Shown: piece after piece, positions 56,697 to 64,000 of the stretch | Layout of the letters: each line of letters starts with the position of its first letter | How positions within the stretch are numbered: the stretch's first letter is position 1 | Origin: Bremerella sp. TYQ1 | GTDB lineage: Bacteria > Planctomycetota > Planctomycetia > Pirellulales > Pirellulaceae | Direction: 5' to 3' | Length of the DNA: 64,000 bases | Assembly: GCF_020150455.1 (NCBI RefSeq) | Contig: NZ_CP083740.1 | Coordinates: 1,798,001 to 1,862,000 of the forward strand | Position numbers and translations under genes: made by a program | Notes under the pieces: model-generated | Seen by the model: only the letters and a program-made list of their open reading frames with translations | What the model was told of the DNA's origin: nothing | Databases searched by the model: none

Positions 56697-59600
56697 TTAA
56701 AGCTCGGCCCAGTGGACGTCTGCTCGAGTCAACAAGCGGTCGGCGACTGGGACATAATCAGGACGGTTTTCGATCAAAAGCCGAGCTGCTTCACGCAGCG
56801 GAATGTTGCCGGCCGACTCCATCCAGATCACCTTGGGCAGCTTCGTTCCTAGGGGAGAGCTGCCGGCCAGGTGAGGCGCCGACGTGGTCACTGTCGAGTT
56901 ATCCGCCACTGATTCCGGCAGGAACATCAAACGCGAAACGGTAGCACCTAACTGCGTGAGTCGGCAGTCAGAAGAAGCAACGCGTTGCTTCCAATCGGGC
57001 CCGTCTTGAAGCGAGCTGAGGAACTGGTTTTCGCTGCCTTCTTCCGAAGCGTTGCGGCGAGCCAGGTCTTTGCCACACTCCATCATCACGTCGATCAGCT
57101 TGTCGACACCGTTGCGTTCTTCGTGCAGCAAATTGCACAGACCGCCATGATCGGCATTCAAGATGTCGTCGATGTTCCGTTCCAACAGCATCAGCTTTTC
57201 CAGGAACTTAGGATCTTCGACCACCGAACGGTCATCCAAAGCCATTCGCTCGCGAGCTTTCATCTCGGCCATTTCCAGGCTGGTGATCGTGCTCTTGATC
57301 CACATGTTGTCGCTCATGATGGCGGCACGCAAATGCTGGAATACCTGGCAAGTCGCAAGGACGATTACCCCGTGCGTTCGCAGCAGAGCATAGTTCAGCC
57401 AGATCGAGCGCAACTCGGGCAGGCTCATTCCGCCATCGTTTCCGCGGCTCTTACGTTTCGTGGATTGATGAATGACAGGGAAGAGGGACGTACGGAGCTT
57501 TTCGATCTCTTGATCGGTCCGTTCCCCCATGGCCCGGGCTTTTTCTTCCAGCTCGTGCAGCCGCTGATCGACAACGGACGAAAGCTGCTTGACGCCGCGG
57601 ACTCGGAAGTTTGACTCGTTCAGAATCGAATGAATTTGCTCGAGAACCTTCTTTTTGTAATGCCCTGCGATCTGTCGAATGTGCGGGGCGATTTCCGTAT
57701 GCAACGAAACGGCGATCAGCTTACCAGGCTCGGCTTCCATGTTGGATGAACCGATCAGCTGATCAAGCGAATCGAGCATCTGAATCGTCATTTCGGCCGA
57801 CGTTGGCTGAATGCGCAATCCGCTGATTTCATTGGCAAAGCGGCCGATCGTTTCGCTGAAGTAGTCTTCGGCACTGCCGCCGATTTCATCTTCGACTACC
57901 TGGGTGACCATATCGATGATCGTTTCCAAGCGGAACTCGGCATCCTGGAAGATCTTTTCCGACCGGAGATCGAGGATCTTCTTATAGTGCTCGGCCCGGG
58001 CAGAAGCTTGCTGATCGGTATCGTTTAAATGAGCCAGCTTACGCTGTTCTTTCTCGCCGTTGCTAGTCCCATGCCAACGTTTTAGCAGTTCCATGGTATA
58101 GCGTGCCGCGGCCAGATCGAGATGACCGCTCGAACATAGCGGCTTGCCGGCAAACGCCCAAGCCGAAACGGTCGGGCCTTCGCTTGCCGGGGCATCGGAC
58201 GAACTGCGTGCCCGCTGAGCGACTTCACGCCCTTCGTAAACGTTCATGTACAGCAGGTCAGCGATGTCATTCATATCGACCGGCGCGTTACGAGTTTCCG
58301 GCGAAGTTCCGGTCTCGAACATCGTGATCTGCTGAGAAATGCTCTCGGTCCAGCGCTGCGGCGGAATCTTGGTGACCGCGTCGCCTGGGTACTCTCCGGT
58401 GACTTGAAAATGGTACAGTTCTCGCAGGCAAGCGTAGGTGTTGCAGCGAGCCAGATCTTGTTGTTCGACGCCGTTCGGAGTGGCATGAATGAGCCAGAGC
58501 GAAACGTCCGCTCCGCTGCCGCCAAAGTCTTGCACGACTTCTTGAGCCAACGCAAACGCATCCCAAACCATGCCGCTGCCGGTTCCGCCGCTGCTGCTCA
58601 TGACCAGCACGACGCGCGGTTTTGGCTTCCAGGCAAAGTTCTCGTTATTCGGATCGATATGATCCTGGGCACTATCCACGGCGTCGGCAACGGCGTCGCG
58701 GATTTTATCACGCAGTCGACTGGCATGATCGGCAAAGGCAAGCCGTCCCAGCGGACGCATCCCTTCGGTCTTGAGCGAAAGCGGAATGTTGTACAACCAA
58801 CGACGACTCATCGACTTGGTCAACTGCCGTGAAAGATTGCGGTAGGCCTGGGGACGCCGCAGCGGCATCTCGACGGTCGAAAGGGAAGGGGTCCCAGCCG
58901 CAGCGCCTAGTTGCCCCGTGCTTTGAACCAAGTCGGTCATGTCGGTGTCGATCGCGACGCACTGACACCAATGTTGCTCTTGCTGTGTACCGACAAGTTC
59001 CAGTCGTCGATCGACAAACTGGCGCAAGACCCGATTGCCGAGACCACCAATGCCGAGCACGACGCTCGGTCGAAGCTCTCGTTGGGTGCGATCGTCCGCA
59101 ATCGTAGGCAGAACCTCTTGCTTGCGTGGCTTGATGTCTTCCCAAACGCTACTGGAACGAGGCTGCCAGGCTCGGCTGTCTCGATCCATGCGGATCGTTT
59201 CAGGATCGGAATCGCGGCCCTGGCAATTGGAGTCGCTCGATTTGGTGTCGTTGCAATTGATCGTCTTAGTATCGGTCTTCGACGATTCATCTTGCCCGAG
59301 TGAGCCGGAACGAACCTGGGGAATGTGAGCGAGACTGTCGGCCTCGATCAGGGCTTTCACCATTTCGGCACAGCTGCGGTAGCGTTCGTTTGGCTTCTTG
59401 GCGAGTGCCTTGGAAAGGATATCCCGATCGCGGGGCGGCAATGTGTTCAGCCGAGGTGGACTGTTCAGATGTTGCGCAGTCAACTGAGCCAGGTTTCGGC
59501 CAGGGAAGGGAAGCGTTCCCGTCAGCATCTCCTGGTACACAATCGCGAGACTGTATTGATCGCTTTGACGCGATGGCTGATCGTTGAAGACTTCCGGCGA

Positions 59601-60140
59601 AGCATACAACGGCGTGAGCCCTGCCATCATCGAGGCGGTCACGTCTTGGATGGATTTGACTAAGCCAAAGTCGGCCACTTTCGCGTGATTGCCGACAACA
59701 AGAAGGTTCTCTGGCTTCACGTCGAGATGCTGAAGCGAATGGACTTCGGTCATATAGTCCAACGCTTCGGCCGAGTCGGCCATGTACCGTAGCAGTTCGT
59801 CGCGGGGAATGCCCGGCAAACCTTCCTGTCGGCAAACATCGAAGCGGTCTTTCAGACAGCAGTCGGCCAGCTCGGTGACGACCACCAATTGCGCATCGAT
59901 CACTTCGATACGCTCTAAGGAAAGGAGGAACGGGTGGCGCAGATCTTTGATCCGGTTGAGCGCCTTCAGTTCGCGCGAGGCGCGAGCCTCGTCGTGGAAA
60001 CCAAACACCAACTTGACGGCCTTGGAAAGACCACCAGGTGCGTCTGCTCGCCAGACTTCGCCGTAGCCACCGGCTCCGATTCGTTGTACGAGGCGATATC
60101 CGTCTACCTCTCGTACTGTCGCACTTGTCTCGATCGACAC
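56697..60140 (-). CDS. Serine/threonine kinase fused to a tubulin/FtsZ-like GTPase domain
   Basis: 1147 residues from GTG 60140 (AAGG nine bases upstream); an in-frame GTG at 60209 would add 23. Kinase at about 14-270: GAGGYGEVWRA, Lys43 in SKAVKLV, catalytic HLDVKPENLL (HLD for HRD, Asp140), DFG at 157, SPE for APE. After a Ser/Asp-rich linker a tubulin-like domain begins VVLGIGGLGNRVLRQFVDR (about 360), with the GTPase signature SSSGGTGSGM (about 515-524) and DIAD at 625-628, which lies where FtsZ has its catalytic T7 loop. About 500 helical residues follow. Family Tubulin_2 is known only by annotation; the role is unknown. An FHA gene lies upstream on the same strand. Confidence 0.85.
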   Translation of the reverse strand: MSIETSATVREVDGYRLVQRIGAGGYGEVWRADAPGGLSKAVKLVFGFHDEARASRELKALNRIKDLRHPFLLSLERIEVIDAQLVVVTELADCCLKDRFDVCRQEGLPGIPRDELLRYMADSAEALDYMTEVHSLQHLDVKPENLLVVGNHAKVADFGLVKSIQDVTASMMAGLTPLYASPEVFNDQPSRQSDQYSLAIVYQEMLTGTLPFPGRNLAQLTAQHLNSPPRLNTLPPRDRDILSKALAKKPNERYRSCAEMVKALIEADSLAHIPQVRSGSLGQDESSKTDTKTINCNDTKSSDSNCQGRDSDPETIRMDRDSRAWQPRSSSVWEDIKPRKQEVLPTIADDRTQRELRPSVVLGIGGLGNRVLRQFVDRRLELVGTQQEQHWCQCVAIDTDMTDLVQSTGQLGAAAGTPSLSTVEMPLRRPQAYRNLSRQLTKSMSRRWLYNIPLSLKTEGMRPLGRLAFADHASRLRDKIRDAVADAVDSAQDHIDPNNENFAWKPKPRVVLVMSSSGGTGSGMVWDAFALAQEVVQDFGGSGADVSLWLIHATPNGVEQQDLARCNTYACLRELYHFQVTGEYPGDAVTKIPPQRWTESISQQITMFETGTSPETRNAPVDMNDIADLLYMNVYEGREVAQRARSSSDAPASEGPTVSAWAFAGKPLCSSGHLDLAAARYTMELLKRWHGTSNGEKEQRKLAHLNDTDQQASARAEHYKKILDLRSEKIFQDAEFRLETIIDMVTQVVEDEIGGSAEDYFSETIGRFANEISGLRIQPTSAEMTIQMLDSLDQLIGSSNMEAEPGKLIAVSLHTEIAPHIRQIAGHYKKKVLEQIHSILNESNFRVRGVKQLSSVVDQRLHELEEKARAMGERTDQEIEKLRTSLFPVIHQSTKRKSRGNDGGMSLPELRSIWLNYALLRTHGVIVLATCQVFQHLRAAIMSDNMWIKSTITSLEMAEMKARERMALDDRSVVEDPKFLEKLMLLERNIDDILNADHGGLCNLLHEERNGVDKLIDVMMECGKDLARRNASEEGSENQFLSSLQDGPDWKQRVASSDCRLTQLGATVSRLMFLPESVADNSTVTTSAPHLAGSSPLGTKLPKVIWMESAGNIPLREAARLLIENRPDYVPVADRLLTRADVHWAEL

Positions 60141-60238
60141 GATTAAGGACCTTATTTCGGGTCTGCGAATGCGATCATCGCAAGGGAATACCCAGTTGTA
60201 TATTGGCACGCAAAAAATGCGTTGAGCTTTCGCAAGGA

Positions 60239-60304: not shown

Positions 60305-61402
60305 TTAGGTGGGAAAACGTACGACTACGTCGAATCCCATCTGCTGCAATACCTGGTTATCTGGTCCACTGGAAGCAGCTTGGGCAATGGCCTGACTGCC
60401 GGCGGACTTTACTTCCTGAATGTATTCTTGAATGCTAGTGGCAACGGCCGGACTTCGTGAAGCCGCCGACAAGGCACTAGCCGATACGCCGATCATCTTG
60501 GCGTGCTGAAGCACGTCAGAGACAATCGGCGGCTTGAATTGTTCGATTCCGATCACCGCGATCTCGACCCCCATCGCTCGAAGGTCTTCGACAGCGGTGT
60601 TGTCCCAATAATTGGCTTCCCATAAGTCGACCGAGCCGCCCAAAACCACTTTGACGGCAGAGCCAAGCTTGGTCCGAATCCAACCAACCGTTTCGAGCAA
60701 GTCGGCTCGATTGAGGTCTGACTCGTCGATCTCCAGCATCAATAAACCGCCGACGTTCTGGCGTTCCTGCAGCGCCAGCAATGCCGAACTGTGCTGAAGC
60801 AAACGGAGTGGGTTCTCCAGGACCAACGAGTTTTTCAGCAGCTTCGTTTCTTCGTGATTCTGATATGCTTTGCGGAAAAGGGGGCACCACTGCCCAGCGA
60901 TTTGTTGCGTGGCGACGCTCTCGATGGAGAGCAGGCCTGGATCAATTCGCTTCAAGCCAGACCACTGATTGACGGTGCGGAGGGCTTGAATCAGTAAATG
61001 AGGATCTTGCGCAGGAGCGGAAGCCTGAACGCGATCTTCCATCGTCAGCGTTACCGTTTGACGAGCCGTCTCGGCCGCAGGGCAATGGAAATCGAATTCA
61101 AAGTCAGCAATCGATACGGTATCGCCATCGACAAGAACATGCTCGTCGAGCTTCTCGCCGTTGATGTAAACGCCATTCGTACTGCGCAAATCACGTATCA
61201 GGTAGCCACTTCCGTGGCGGACGACTTCAGCGTGCTCTCGTGAGACGCGTCCTGATTCGACGGTCAGATTGCACGTGGCGTTGCGCCCGATGATGAATGG
61301 AAAGTCATCGATCACCGATTTGGTCGAACGGCCAGTGGCTTGATCGAGGTACTCGAGGTAAATCGAGTCGTTTCCAATAGTCGGTAGCAGCTGCGTCTGC
61401 AT
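60305..61402 (-). CDS. FHA-domain protein with a C-terminal EAL-like fold
   Basis: 365 residues. An FHA domain spans about residues 20-110: FPFIIGRNATCNLTVESGRVSREHAEVVRHGSGYLIRDLRSTNGVYINGEKL, with the Gly-Arg, Ser, His and Asn-Gly residues that bind phosphothreonine. Residues 150-350 resemble a degenerate EAL-type barrel (LMLEIDESDL, VKVVLGGSVDLWEANYW, LRAMGVEIAVIGIEQFKPP) but lack clear metal ligands. It is upstream of the kinase-tubulin gene, so it is a natural reader of that kinase's phosphorylation. ATG 61402 is chosen over GTG 61513. Confidence 0.75.
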   Translation of the reverse strand: MQTQLLPTIGNDSIYLEYLDQATGRSTKSVIDDFPFIIGRNATCNLTVESGRVSREHAEVVRHGSGYLIRDLRSTNGVYINGEKLDEHVLVDGDTVSIADFEFDFHCPAAETARQTVTLTMEDRVQASAPAQDPHLLIQALRTVNQWSGLKRIDPGLLSIESVATQQIAGQWCPLFRKAYQNHEETKLLKNSLVLENPLRLLQHSSALLALQERQNVGGLLMLEIDESDLNRADLLETVGWIRTKLGSAVKVVLGGSVDLWEANYWDNTAVEDLRAMGVEIAVIGIEQFKPPIVSDVLQHAKMIGVSASALSAASRSPAVATSIQEYIQEVKSAGSQAIAQAASSGPDNQVLQQMGFDVVVRFPT

Positions 61403-61763
61403 TCTTCCTACCCTGATGCTGGCGTCTACTCGTTCATCGAAACAAGGCAAACCATTGCCAAGTCGATCGGAAAAGTCGTCGGATAAGCTGCCGCGTTGCG
61501 CTGTTTGTTCCACGTCGCGGTGAGTGGCGGTTAAGTCACACCCAAATCAAACATAGGTCATAAACATCCGGCGTGACTGTGAATTTTTTGCCGGAGCAGG
61601 GGGGACGCACGGTTTGGCTCTCTATGTTCCCGAAATATTTTCGTTTTCCGCGATTTGAAATCTCGCACTTCCTGGGCCGTCATGAACTATGTTTCCTTTA
61701 AGCGCGGATCGATCGTTTGCGCGGTCGACTTTTCATCATCTCTTCTGGGAAGCAGGTAGTTTC
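61403..61763. other. Divergent region between FHA and pseudo-receiver genes
   Basis: About 360 bases that must hold the promoters of both units. A run GTGAATTTTTTGCCGG and AT-rich sequence lie near 61580-61660; no reliable promoter pair or operator was recognised. Confidence 0.4.
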
Positions 61764-63011
61764 ATGGTTTCACGTGCACTACGAATCGTCGTTGTCTCTG
61801 AGGACCGTCAACACCTTCGCGACTGCTTCGACTTCTTCGTAGCGTGTGGATATGAAGTAGAAACTCGCTGCGATTCGGTCTATCGAGAGAACGATTCTGC
61901 CCAGAAAAACGATCTTTTGATCTACGACTACAACGGCCATCAGTCGAGCGTCGGGCATGACAACTTGTTCCGCATCGCTGTCGTGCCGGCCGATAAACCA
62001 GAGCTCGTTCAGAAAGCGATTTCCGAGTCGGCGGACGATGTCGTTTTGCGACCGGTGACGCCTGCCAAACTGCTTGTCCGTATCCGCGCGGCAGCCGCCA
62101 TCCTGGAGGCCCGCGTTGCCGTATCCCAGCAATTTGGGCGCGATCCGCGCAAACGATACCCGGGCGAAGGGGCATTCCTAGGCACACTCCAGAACACGAT
62201 CGAACAAATTTCGGTCCATGGCCATTGCGTCTGTGCAACCCTGTTTTCCGTATCGAACAGCCGCTCGGAACGTTACAGCCAGTGGTTGTCGGAGTTGGAA
62301 GCGACCGCTTTGCCCGATTCACGCATCTTCGAGCTTTCTGGCGATCGCGTTGCTGTCATCACTCCAGCGACAACGCCTGATCAAGTAACCCACTGGGCCG
62401 CCGATCAGATGGCCCAGGCATCGGTTCGAGATACTTCGCAATCGAACGTGCCTCCGCTTAGCGTCTCTGGCAGTTTCGTTAGCACGCGAAACGATTCAGC
62501 TAGTAGCCAACAAATATCGCTTGTGTTGTCCGATCGGCTCAACTTGGCGATGAGTCTTGGGGAAGGGCTTCTCGTCGACGATGCGCTGGAAAGCCAATGG
62601 CTGCCGCATCAACCGACAGGAAGCATCTTCGACGGCATGACTGCCCAGGATATTATGCGGCCAACGACGGTTCGCCTCCGCGATACCGATACGGCCCAGA
62701 ATGCCTTGGAAACGATGAAGCTATGGAACGCGGACATCGCTCCGGTATTCAGCAGCGATGAAACATCGTGCGGTTTGATACGTACCGAAGACCTGACTGA
62801 GCTGGAAGATAAACAACAAGCCATCGGCCGTTACTGCCTGCCGAATGTACCTCGCGTACGATGCGACTCCACATTCGACGAGTTCGTGGCGTTGTTCTCG
62901 TCGAACGATTCTGCCTGGCTCCAGGTCCTTCGCAACAACGATCCTGTCGGTGTCATCCACTGCGACGATCTGACGTCGATGAACACCCCGGTGATGGTTT
63001 CGCTGCCGTAA
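61764..63011 (+). CDS. Pseudo-receiver protein with C-terminal CBS pair
   Basis: 415 residues. The first 120 resemble a response-regulator receiver (RIVVVSEDRQHLRDCFDFFVACGYEVE, LLIYDYNG with Asp at the phospho-site region, DDVVLRPVTPAKLLVRI) but the acidic pair is replaced by SED, so phosphorylation is doubtful. The middle (about 130-280) has the trace of a GGDEF-like fold without the motif (FLGTLQNTIEQISVHGHCVCATLF; SGDRVAVITPA). The end is a CBS pair: TAQDIMRPTTVRLRDTDTAQNALETMKLWNADIAPVF and CDSTFDEFVALFSSNDSAWLQVLRNNDPVGVIHCDDL. Probably a sensor/scaffold. It is divergent from the FHA gene. Confidence 0.7.
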   Translation: MVSRALRIVVVSEDRQHLRDCFDFFVACGYEVETRCDSVYRENDSAQKNDLLIYDYNGHQSSVGHDNLFRIAVVPADKPELVQKAISESADDVVLRPVTPAKLLVRIRAAAAILEARVAVSQQFGRDPRKRYPGEGAFLGTLQNTIEQISVHGHCVCATLFSVSNSRSERYSQWLSELEATALPDSRIFELSGDRVAVITPATTPDQVTHWAADQMAQASVRDTSQSNVPPLSVSGSFVSTRNDSASSQQISLVLSDRLNLAMSLGEGLLVDDALESQWLPHQPTGSIFDGMTAQDIMRPTTVRLRDTDTAQNALETMKLWNADIAPVFSSDETSCGLIRTEDLTELEDKQQAIGRYCLPNVPRVRCDSTFDEFVALFSSNDSAWLQVLRNNDPVGVIHCDDLTSMNTPVMVSLP

Positions 63012-63204: not shown

Positions 63205-64000
63205 CTAATCGTTGCCTGCGACGACGGTGAAGTAACTCCCCACGACCAGGTCGAAATACTCCGGTCGCATTTCCATCGGGAAGCCTTTGTAGACACAGTA
63301 ATTGCGGATCTGCGTCAAAAGGTCGCGCGGCTGGCAGCGTCGCATCGGACGATTTACTGGAGCGTAGTGATTGTCGATCAAATGCGTGATCGATTCTTCG
63401 TCGTAGCGGCAACCGAACTGCTTCGAGAAGATTTGAAAGAGCTTGTGGAACTCTTCCTGCGAAGCATCTTCCACTTCGATCTTATAAGGTATTCGCCGCA
63501 GAAATGCGTCGTCGGTCAAGTCCGATGGCTCGAGGTTGGTCGAGAATATAATCAACTGCTCGAAGGGAACCTGAATCTTCTTACCGTTAGGAAGTGCCAG
63601 GTAGTCGACACGGTTTTCCAGCGGAACGATCCAGCGGTTGAGTAGTTCTTGCGGCTCCATTCGCTGACGGCCGAAGTCATCGATCAGGAGGCTCCCACAG
63701 TTGCTCTTCATCTGCAGTGGGGCTTCGCAAATGTTGTTGATTGGATCGAAACGGATTTCGAGACTGTCCATCGTCAGCTCGCCACCAACAACCACCGTGG
63801 GCCGGCGAACTTTAATCCAGCGTTTGTCGAAGTTGTCGGACTTGATGATGCTGTTTTCGTCTTGATCGACCGCTTCGTGGAAAGCTGCGTCGAACAGCTT
63901 GATGAACTGGCCATCTTCAACAACAGTACGTGGAATCCAGATTTCCTGGCCGTAACAGGCCGTAATTCGCTTGGCGAGTGTCGTTTTGCCGTTACCTGGG
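63205..64000 (-). CDS. AAA ATPase, N-terminus cut by right edge
   Basis: The open frame continues to base 64000, giving about 264 C-terminal residues. Walker A PGNGKTTLAKRI appears at the edge, then CYGQEIWIPRTVVEDGQFIKLFDAAFHE, Walker B SLLIDDFGRQRMEP, the sensor-1 region LIIFSTNLEPSDLTDDAFLRRIPYKIEV, and CQPRDLLTQIRNYCVYKG near the C-terminus. It is an AAA-type ATPase of the MoxR-like or DnaA-like group, kind unclear. The N-terminal part lies outside. Confidence 0.82.
   Translation of the reverse strand, partial: PGNGKTTLAKRITACYGQEIWIPRTVVEDGQFIKLFDAAFHEAVDQDENSIIKSDNFDKRWIKVRRPTVVVGGELTMDSLEIRFDPINNICEAPLQMKSNCGSLLIDDFGRQRMEPQELLNRWIVPLENRVDYLALPNGKKIQVPFEQLIIFSTNLEPSDLTDDAFLRRIPYKIEVEDASQEEFHKLFQIFSKQFGCRYDEESITHLIDNHYAPVNRPMRRCQPRDLLTQIRNYCVYKGFPMEMRPEYFDLVVGSYFTVVAGND

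Follow-up and report, generated by a model that had tools for sequence, protein, structure and literature searches.

Tubulin-like proteins of the FtsZl1 group (Tubulin_2, PF13809) were described in 2010 (Makarova and Koonin 2010), and the literature that we searched holds no account of an experimentally demonstrated FtsZl1 function. The passages of that paper on gene neighbourhoods note kinases near FtsZl1 genes. In a reviewer's remark recorded there, the gene of Pirellula staleyi has a diguanylate phosphodiesterase beside it; the authors discounted neighbours of this kind as restricted to a single organism or a few relatives. GAP1-N2 systems (Kaur et al. 2020), as set out in the sections dealing with them, are likewise multi-gene systems with a bacterial protein of the tubulin family whose C-terminal region is helical. 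Fusions of a kinase to a tubulin-like protein in Planctomycetes are already in print (PMC9871819, PMC11032199), with the same two domains and from the same phylum as the protein studied here, the kinase being N-terminal in PMC9871819. The passages on the fusion in these two papers give no partners, structure or T7 analysis, unlike the present analysis.

We analysed a window of 64,000 nucleotides of Bremerella sp. TYQ1 DNA (the whole stretch, to which all coordinates refer), in which the locus comprises the following features:

56697..60140 (stop included), minus strand: kinase-tubulin fusion gene P0001, 1147 aa from the GTG at 60140
59367..60098, minus strand: Ser/Thr kinase domain, aa 15-258 (PF00069, E 1.3e-29)
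59109..59366, minus strand: Ser/Thr-rich linker joining the kinase to the GTPase, aa 259-344
58071..59108, minus strand: Tubulin/FtsZl1 GTPase core, aa 345-690 (PF13809, AF2 models, fold search)
58572..58592, minus strand: T4 G-box SGGTGSG, aa 517-523 (from the sequence)
58257..58268, minus strand: DIAD, aa 625-628, on H7 in the model (the helix following S6), off T7
58203..58235, minus strand: likely T7/H8 equivalent, aa 636-646 (from topology)
56949..58061, minus strand: predicted helical insertion, about aa 694-1064 (from the model)
56700..56948, minus strand: C-terminal alpha/beta part, aa 1065-1147 (conserved columns and model)
60305..61513, minus strand: FHA protein with a degenerate EAL domain (PF00498, E 4.6e-18)
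61689..63011, plus strand: divergent gene of the REC-GGDEF-CBS family, CBS alone being over the Pfam cut-off
63205..64000, minus strand: AAA+-like ATPase gene, truncated at the window edge (complete at L164:9205-10524, 439 aa)

The sequence-only reading had placed a kinase and a tubulin-like GTPase on a single polypeptide, and this holds, as one minus-strand frame carries both the PF00069 and the PF13809 match; an alternative start at 60209 is also open and would add 23 aa. A chance fusion is countered by the same architecture in 79 of the 80 loci retained from a collection scan with one peptide pattern (the best 80 of 158 relatives), and in the remaining locus (L095) the frame leaves the contig end; Blastopirellula marina DSM 3645 (L088) is among the carriers. 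Further loci were added because they matched the window protein or PF13809, giving a non-random sample of 108 distinct fusion loci, with neighbours viewed for part of the 22 PF13809-matching genomes. The kinase-tubulin fusion is real, and its architecture is known from print. It differs from the published FtsZl1 system in that the kinase is fused, and in its surroundings: the vWA, P-loop GTPase and OmpA neighbours given in the 2010 passages are replaced here by FHA-EAL, AAA+-like and REC-GGDEF-CBS genes. No vWA or P-loop GTPase gene was found beside the fusion among the eight window ORFs and the nine proteins from the window region and relatives that were scanned.

The neighbour genes, which the sequence-only reading had passed over, are the most informative part of the locus. 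The FHA gene lies directly upstream of the fusion, with a 95-bp gap to the longest fusion start, and a gene of this FHA-EAL family is present in 81 of the 82 testable loci; nine loci were counted as being without it, among them L091, which has a partial frame at the contig end that falls below the cut. The phosphothreonine-site residues of the FHA domain, which we take to be G-R, S, H, N-G and N, are intact in the window protein and in 95-96 of the 96 family proteins (a set that includes the window's and was not deduplicated). The catalytic set of the EAL domain, which we assume to be seven residues, is complete in 51 of the 96 proteins scored, and none of the seven is present in the window. 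The loci fall into two forms. In form I the AAA+-like ATPase gene is directly upstream of the fusion and the EAL residues are intact, while in form II the FHA gene is directly upstream, the EAL domain is dead and a divergent pseudo-GGDEF/CBS gene usually accompanies them. The window locus is of form II, and the GGDEF motif is absent from the product of 61689..63011. Since the catalytic residues of EAL and GGDEF are lost in form II, phosphothreonine docking would be the function retained. The near-constant FHA-EAL linkage with an intact phosphothreonine site, together with the two locus forms, is new: our literature search did not find a planctomycete module of FtsZ-like kinase and FHA protein, and the neighbourhood tables in the supplement to Makarova and Koonin (2010) might list the FHA-EAL and AAA+ genes.

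The kinase domain has all its catalytic residues (Lys43, Glu57, Asp140 of HLD and Asp157 of DFG), and the HLD motif makes it a non-RD kinase; HLD and DFG are each present in 106 of the 108 distinct fusions. The linker that follows is rich in threonine (on average 8.5%, against 4.9% elsewhere in the protein), its content being the higher one in 97 of the 108 proteins, and we infer that it is a candidate segment for autophosphorylation and FHA docking.

The tubulin part matches Tubulin_2 over aa 360-591 (E 5.3e-25) with 88.9 bits, well above the cut-off of 27, whereas the canonical Tubulin model PF00091 stays below its curated cut-off (20.8 bits vs 33). It shares with FtsZl1, as characterised in the passages of the 2010 paper on the family, the family-specific inserts between T1 and T4 and a long helical C-terminal region. 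The T1 (GIGG in the window) and T4 glycine loops of a tubulin-type nucleotide-binding core are both present; GGxGxG is retained in 77 of 88 aligned sequences and the T1 glycines are complete in 56. The G-box SGGTGSG reported earlier is indeed at aa 517-523, and DIAD follows 107 residues past G518, as had been claimed. The proposed tubulin-like fold was also recovered, as a predicted fold, from the AF2 model of aa 345-1147 (the GTPase part without the kinase) and a fold search. By Foldseek and by structural alignment with VIA-align, which covered the folds in the list of Foldseek candidates, the predicted fold resembles CetZ, BtubA/B, FtsZ and tubulin. The window protein differs from these in its sub-threshold PF00091 score, its N-terminal kinase, a helical insertion in the C-terminal domain and the loss of the likely T7 acid in its genus. 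Foldseek gives low TM-scores: for the FtsZ rows listed they are 0.37-0.48 when normalised by target length and about 0.2 when normalised by query length, which the helical insertion may explain. A profile search of solved structures gave mainly coiled-coil and helical matches arising from this insertion, and CetZ (3zid) appeared across the G-box at E 0.43 only.

The long helical or coiled-coil region after the core (model helices 350-720) sits, in the model, behind the helix that follows S7 and ahead of the final strands of the tubulin C-terminal domain, and its aligned length over aa 694-1060 ranges from 145 to 412, with a median of 356. The segment beyond it (aa 1065-1147), with conserved R1135, R1139, D1141 and W1144, appears in the model to complete the tubulin C-terminal domain, which suggests where the hitherto unrecognised C-terminal half of the tubulin fold is located.

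The DxxD motif had been taken for the catalytic T7 loop, and this assignment is not supported. Of the 88 aligned sequences 5 have both D625 and D628, four of these being the window and its own genus; we rejected the pair as T7 on this poor conservation and on its H7 location in the model, judged from structural end points. Position 628 alone is acidic in 71 of the 88, mostly as Glu, and may have a role on H7. Alignment of the family profiles to E. coli FtsZ by hhalign covered the T1-T2 region alone (probabilities 27% and 2.5%), so T7 was placed from topology and structural-alignment end points and not from residue-level superposition; the end points are partly discordant, as the CetZ rows and the rows reaching model residue 356 (tubulin 335-347) need different readings. 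On this placement the likely T7 acid is in column 642, where 62 of the 88 sequences have D or E and 26 have no acid. In the window's genus it is Gln642, so that the protein may hydrolyse GTP poorly or not at all.

The locus is best read as a phosphothreonine signalling scaffold, and what makes the fusion resemble the centre of a signalling machine is that a partner gene for phosphothreonine recognition is almost always nearby. Specifically, we propose that a planctomycete FtsZl1 GTPase carrying a non-RD Ser/Thr kinase at its N-terminus would lie at the heart of a conserved signalling module, a reading from sequence and model to which we give a probability of roughly 0.5. By binding GTP and self-associating, the tubulin part would bring kinases together; these would phosphorylate threonines in their own linker or in partner proteins, and the FHA protein, connected to the fusion here by gene adjacency, would dock on the phosphothreonine; it could instead bind phosphothreonines elsewhere. 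In form I, the EAL domain would then degrade c-di-GMP locally and the AAA+ protein would disassemble the complex, while in form II the catalytically dead EAL and GGDEF domains probably act as scaffolds. The complete scheme, in which a self-assembling tubulin-type GTPase with a kinase on each subunit recruits a c-di-GMP phosphodiesterase through FHA and phosphothreonine, is dismantled by the AAA+ protein and became an enzyme-dead scaffold in the window's lineage, is an unlikely one as a whole. If true, it would be a cytoskeletal hub of FtsZ-less bacteria that joins a GTP polymer, Ser/Thr phosphorylation and c-di-GMP. The near-constant FHA partner and the fused kinase give a testable wiring for the planctomycete FtsZl1 branch, and the enzyme-intact and enzyme-dead locus forms offer a natural comparison.

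The tubulin part might alternatively be a non-polymerising GTP switch or a pseudo-GTPase that merely gates the kinase. The Gln at the likely T7 acid, the lack of an acid at 642 in over a quarter of the sequences and the incomplete T1 glycines are consistent with this, and non-filament forms are named as a possibility in the passages by Makarova and Koonin, but the retention of the G-box and a modelled tubulin fold that includes the end of the C-terminal domain make it rather doubtful. It seems improbable that the locus is a conflict or anti-phage system akin to the GTPase-tubulin systems of Kaur et al. (2020) and that its kinase, FHA and AAA+ proteins relay an invasion signal. Tubulin proteins do occur in GAP1-N2 GTPase systems in the sections of that paper on them, PADLOC kinase models hit the kinase (mad6 best, 2.7e-41), the ATPase matches IetA weakly and the distribution among genomes of the order is patchy. 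However, the PADLOC matches are confined to the kinase domain in the fusion and to short stretches in the ATPase, the FHA and CBS proteins have no PADLOC match at E 0.001, and the module looks vertically maintained in its lineages. Moreover, the neighbour proteins scanned in the window and its relatives include no vWA, TRAFAC GTPase or FNIII protein, in which they differ from GAP1-N2 systems, and no effector domain or nuclease.

A cytoskeletal polymer that substitutes for FtsZ in cell division, with the fused kinase setting filament growth, would agree with the tubulin-type fold of the model and with the lack of a detected FtsZ, which had been anticipated: no PF00091 protein was found in the own genome or in any of the 60 genomes searched (own included), against a match in 13 of 14 control genomes. 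The fusion is the sole PF13809 match of its genome, and the PF13809 and PF00091 searches revealed no other tubulin-superfamily protein there. Yet its tubulin part is detected in only 108 of the 296 genomes from the order (in 92 of the 206 good-quality ones) and in 18 of 392 genomes of a phylum sample, and a division factor would be expected to be less patchy; since most genomes of the order are without it, it is no general FtsZ substitute. With the likely T7 acid lost in the window protein, and a 370-residue insertion and a kinase on each subunit that may impede a filament, we consider this role improbable. As to essentiality, the terms tubulin, kinase, FHA and cytoskelet do not occur in a P. 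limnophila Tn-seq paper, and its FtsZ passages report only the loss of FtsZ.

Returning to the signalling scaffold, the history of its two forms was followed on a quick, poorly resolved tree of 88 rows (three without a form), on which the locus forms require a minimum of five changes and may have a single origin. The AAA+ assignment of the ATPase is a weak one: it has a Walker A motif (GAPGNGKTT), but all Pfam matches are under the curated cut-offs in both ATPase proteins scanned (best E 0.003), and solved structures give weak P-loop matches, with spastin at the top (E 6e-4). In form II its gene is found in 17 of 42 loci, or 11 of the 20 with at least 6 kb of upstream sequence, which weakens the idea that it is obligatory there. 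In one locus (L076), the ATPase gene adjoins a tubulin ORF without a kinase.

The sequence-only reading had claimed that a Ser/Thr kinase and a tubulin/FtsZ-type GTPase are joined in one polypeptide, which is confirmed by two Pfam domains in a single open reading frame:

56697-60140, minus strand: kinase-tubulin fusion ORF, 1147 aa

Residues 15-258 match a protein kinase (1.3e-29) and residues 360-591 match Tubulin_2 (PF13809, 5.3e-25); the PF00091 match of the fusion lies below the Pfam cut-off. The catalytic residues of the kinase are kept, with HLD in place of HRD, which makes it a non-RD kinase; HLD and DFG are each present in 106 of 108 distinct fusions. A scan of one genome per species (84,980 species) gave 158 relatives of the tubulin part, and among the best 80 of these 158, 79 carry a kinase in the same frame and 79 bear planctomycete names; the fusion is not a product of chance or artefact. 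L108, a 3-kb contig binned as Candidatus Nealsonbacteria, carries a planctomycete fusion, and its label is probably due to mis-binning. The genome of the window measures 6.66 Mb in one contig. Of eight other same-genus genomes searched, seven contain the fusion (81-88% identity); in the remaining one, which is 68% complete, only the kinase gave matches.

The fusion itself is known. The FtsZl1 family is treated in PMC2875224, its occurrence in Gemmata massiliana in PMC4672568, tubulin in conflict systems in PMC7159879, and the kinase-tubulin fusion in PMC9871819 and PMC11032199. What appears to be new is the conserved module around it and the split fold of the fusion: no account of an FHA-EAL/AAA+ module with two forms was found in the papers searched, supplements aside.

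Three gene families flank the fusion. Members of family F carry an FHA domain, and in relatives an EAL domain makes up the C-terminal half (at locus L085, FHA 1.4e-20 and EAL 5.4e-36); in the window's member Pfam does not recognise that half. Family C comprises AAA+-like ATPases, which match Pfam models weakly, and family A is of the REC-GGDEF-CBS type, with CBS alone above the cut-off in the window. Among the 108 distinct fusion loci, 82 have at least 4 kb upstream and at least 1.5 kb downstream, and F is found in 81 of these, the exception being L075. It is present in 18 of the remaining 26 and absent in 8. Seven of these 8 have short flanks on one or both sides, and among the seven L091 shows part of an F frame where its contig ends; in the last, L141, the upstream flank is 3.3 kb long.

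The loci take two forms. In form I (62/108), C lies at most 400 bp upstream of the fusion on the same strand; in form II (42/108), which is the window's, it is F that lies upstream on that strand, at a distance of at most 300 bp. No locus has both arrangements and four have neither. All seven EAL residues are kept in 49 form I loci and six in 2 (11 unscored), as against 0-4 of 7 in all 36 scored form II loci (6 unscored). Where form II loci have 4 kb or more upstream (36 loci), an opposite-strand A gene is present in 34; among the 62 form I loci it is present in 2. By motif search, form II A genes lack GG[DE]EF, the exception being an additional copy in a single genome (L051, duplicated as L087), and the GGDEF domain is still recognisable in some of them (PF00990 at 1e-29 in L057). 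Clustering by form is seen on a quick 88-row tree, with at fewest 5 changes versus a mean of 25 when shuffled, and may reflect a single switch. In the window, 60305-61513 (minus) and 61689-63011 (plus) encode members of c-di-GMP enzyme families (EAL and GGDEF) whose catalytic motifs are lost in this lineage and kept in relatives. Beyond the window, at L164:15043-17998, lie genes that on a reading of their sequence resemble GspE/PilB and GspF/PilC.

Of the 96 F proteins, 95-96 retain the phosphothreonine-site residues of the FHA domain, irrespective of EAL state, and the constant part of the module is the kinase, the tubulin fold and the FHA domain. The linker between kinase and GTPase averages 8.5% threonine versus 4.9% elsewhere and is richer in 97 of 108 proteins. 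It would be a natural candidate place for phosphothreonine docking, although Ser/Thr richness is common in linkers and no motif common to the whole family is apparent in it. In the simplest mechanism, GTP-dependent assembly of the fusion would activate the kinases by proximity and recruit the FHA protein. In form I the protein so recruited would be a c-di-GMP phosphodiesterase, with the AAA+ protein perhaps remodelling the assembly; in form II the recruitment would be kept and the enzyme lost.

The earlier interpretation as a whole is partly supported: the fused polypeptide stands, and the proposal that DIAD (residues 625-628) is an FtsZ-like T7 loop is not borne out. In the predicted structure of residues 345-1147, numbered from 345, D625 and D628 belong to the helix that follows S6 (model residues 279-291). 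Structural alignments end with model residue 316-317 paired with B. subtilis FtsZ 225-226 (2vxy, 2vam), 317-318 with residues 269-271 in three tubulin chains (7odn, 9g3x, 9qvm) and 295 with T. maritima FtsZ 213 (1w5f); the remaining rows end elsewhere and are not readable in the same way. By these end points, the FtsZ T7 acids and alpha-tubulin Glu254 would map near residues 636-646. Position 642 is acidic in 62 of 88 family sequences and Gln in the window and its genus; D625 and D628 occur jointly in 5 of 88, and position 628 alone is acidic in 71. The DxxD is therefore most likely a chance resemblance within one genus, and GTP hydrolysis at the tubulin-like interface may be weak in the window's protein.

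PF00091 has no match in the window's genome nor in any of 60 genomes searched, its own included; FtsZ loss in the phylum is covered in PMC10632474. The fusion as a general FtsZ substitute was rejected: the profile of the tubulin part matches 108 of the order's 296 genomes, the 188 that give no match include 114 of the 206 good-quality ones, and division therefore cannot depend on it in general. Across a phylum-wide sample it matches 18 of 392 genomes, eight of them weakly (E 5e-8 to 7e-25).

Tubulin_2-type proteins whose ORF lacks a kinase are found in the three weak matches inspected elsewhere in the phylum (L077, L081 and L082) and in L076, from the window's order. At G015:C768:64684-65589 lies a kinase 46% identical to that of the fusion; its open frame is only 403 aa long, which may mean either a relative that stands alone or the edge of a contig. 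Within the fusion, the stretch SRRWLYNIP...TEGxRPLGRLA between T1 and T4 (residues 445-472; 58725-58808, minus) is more conserved than the G-box SGGTGSG, and a conserved RxxxRxDxxW motif lies at the C terminus (residues 1135-1144; 56709-56738, minus), with R1135 and R1139 invariant among 37 aligned proteins.
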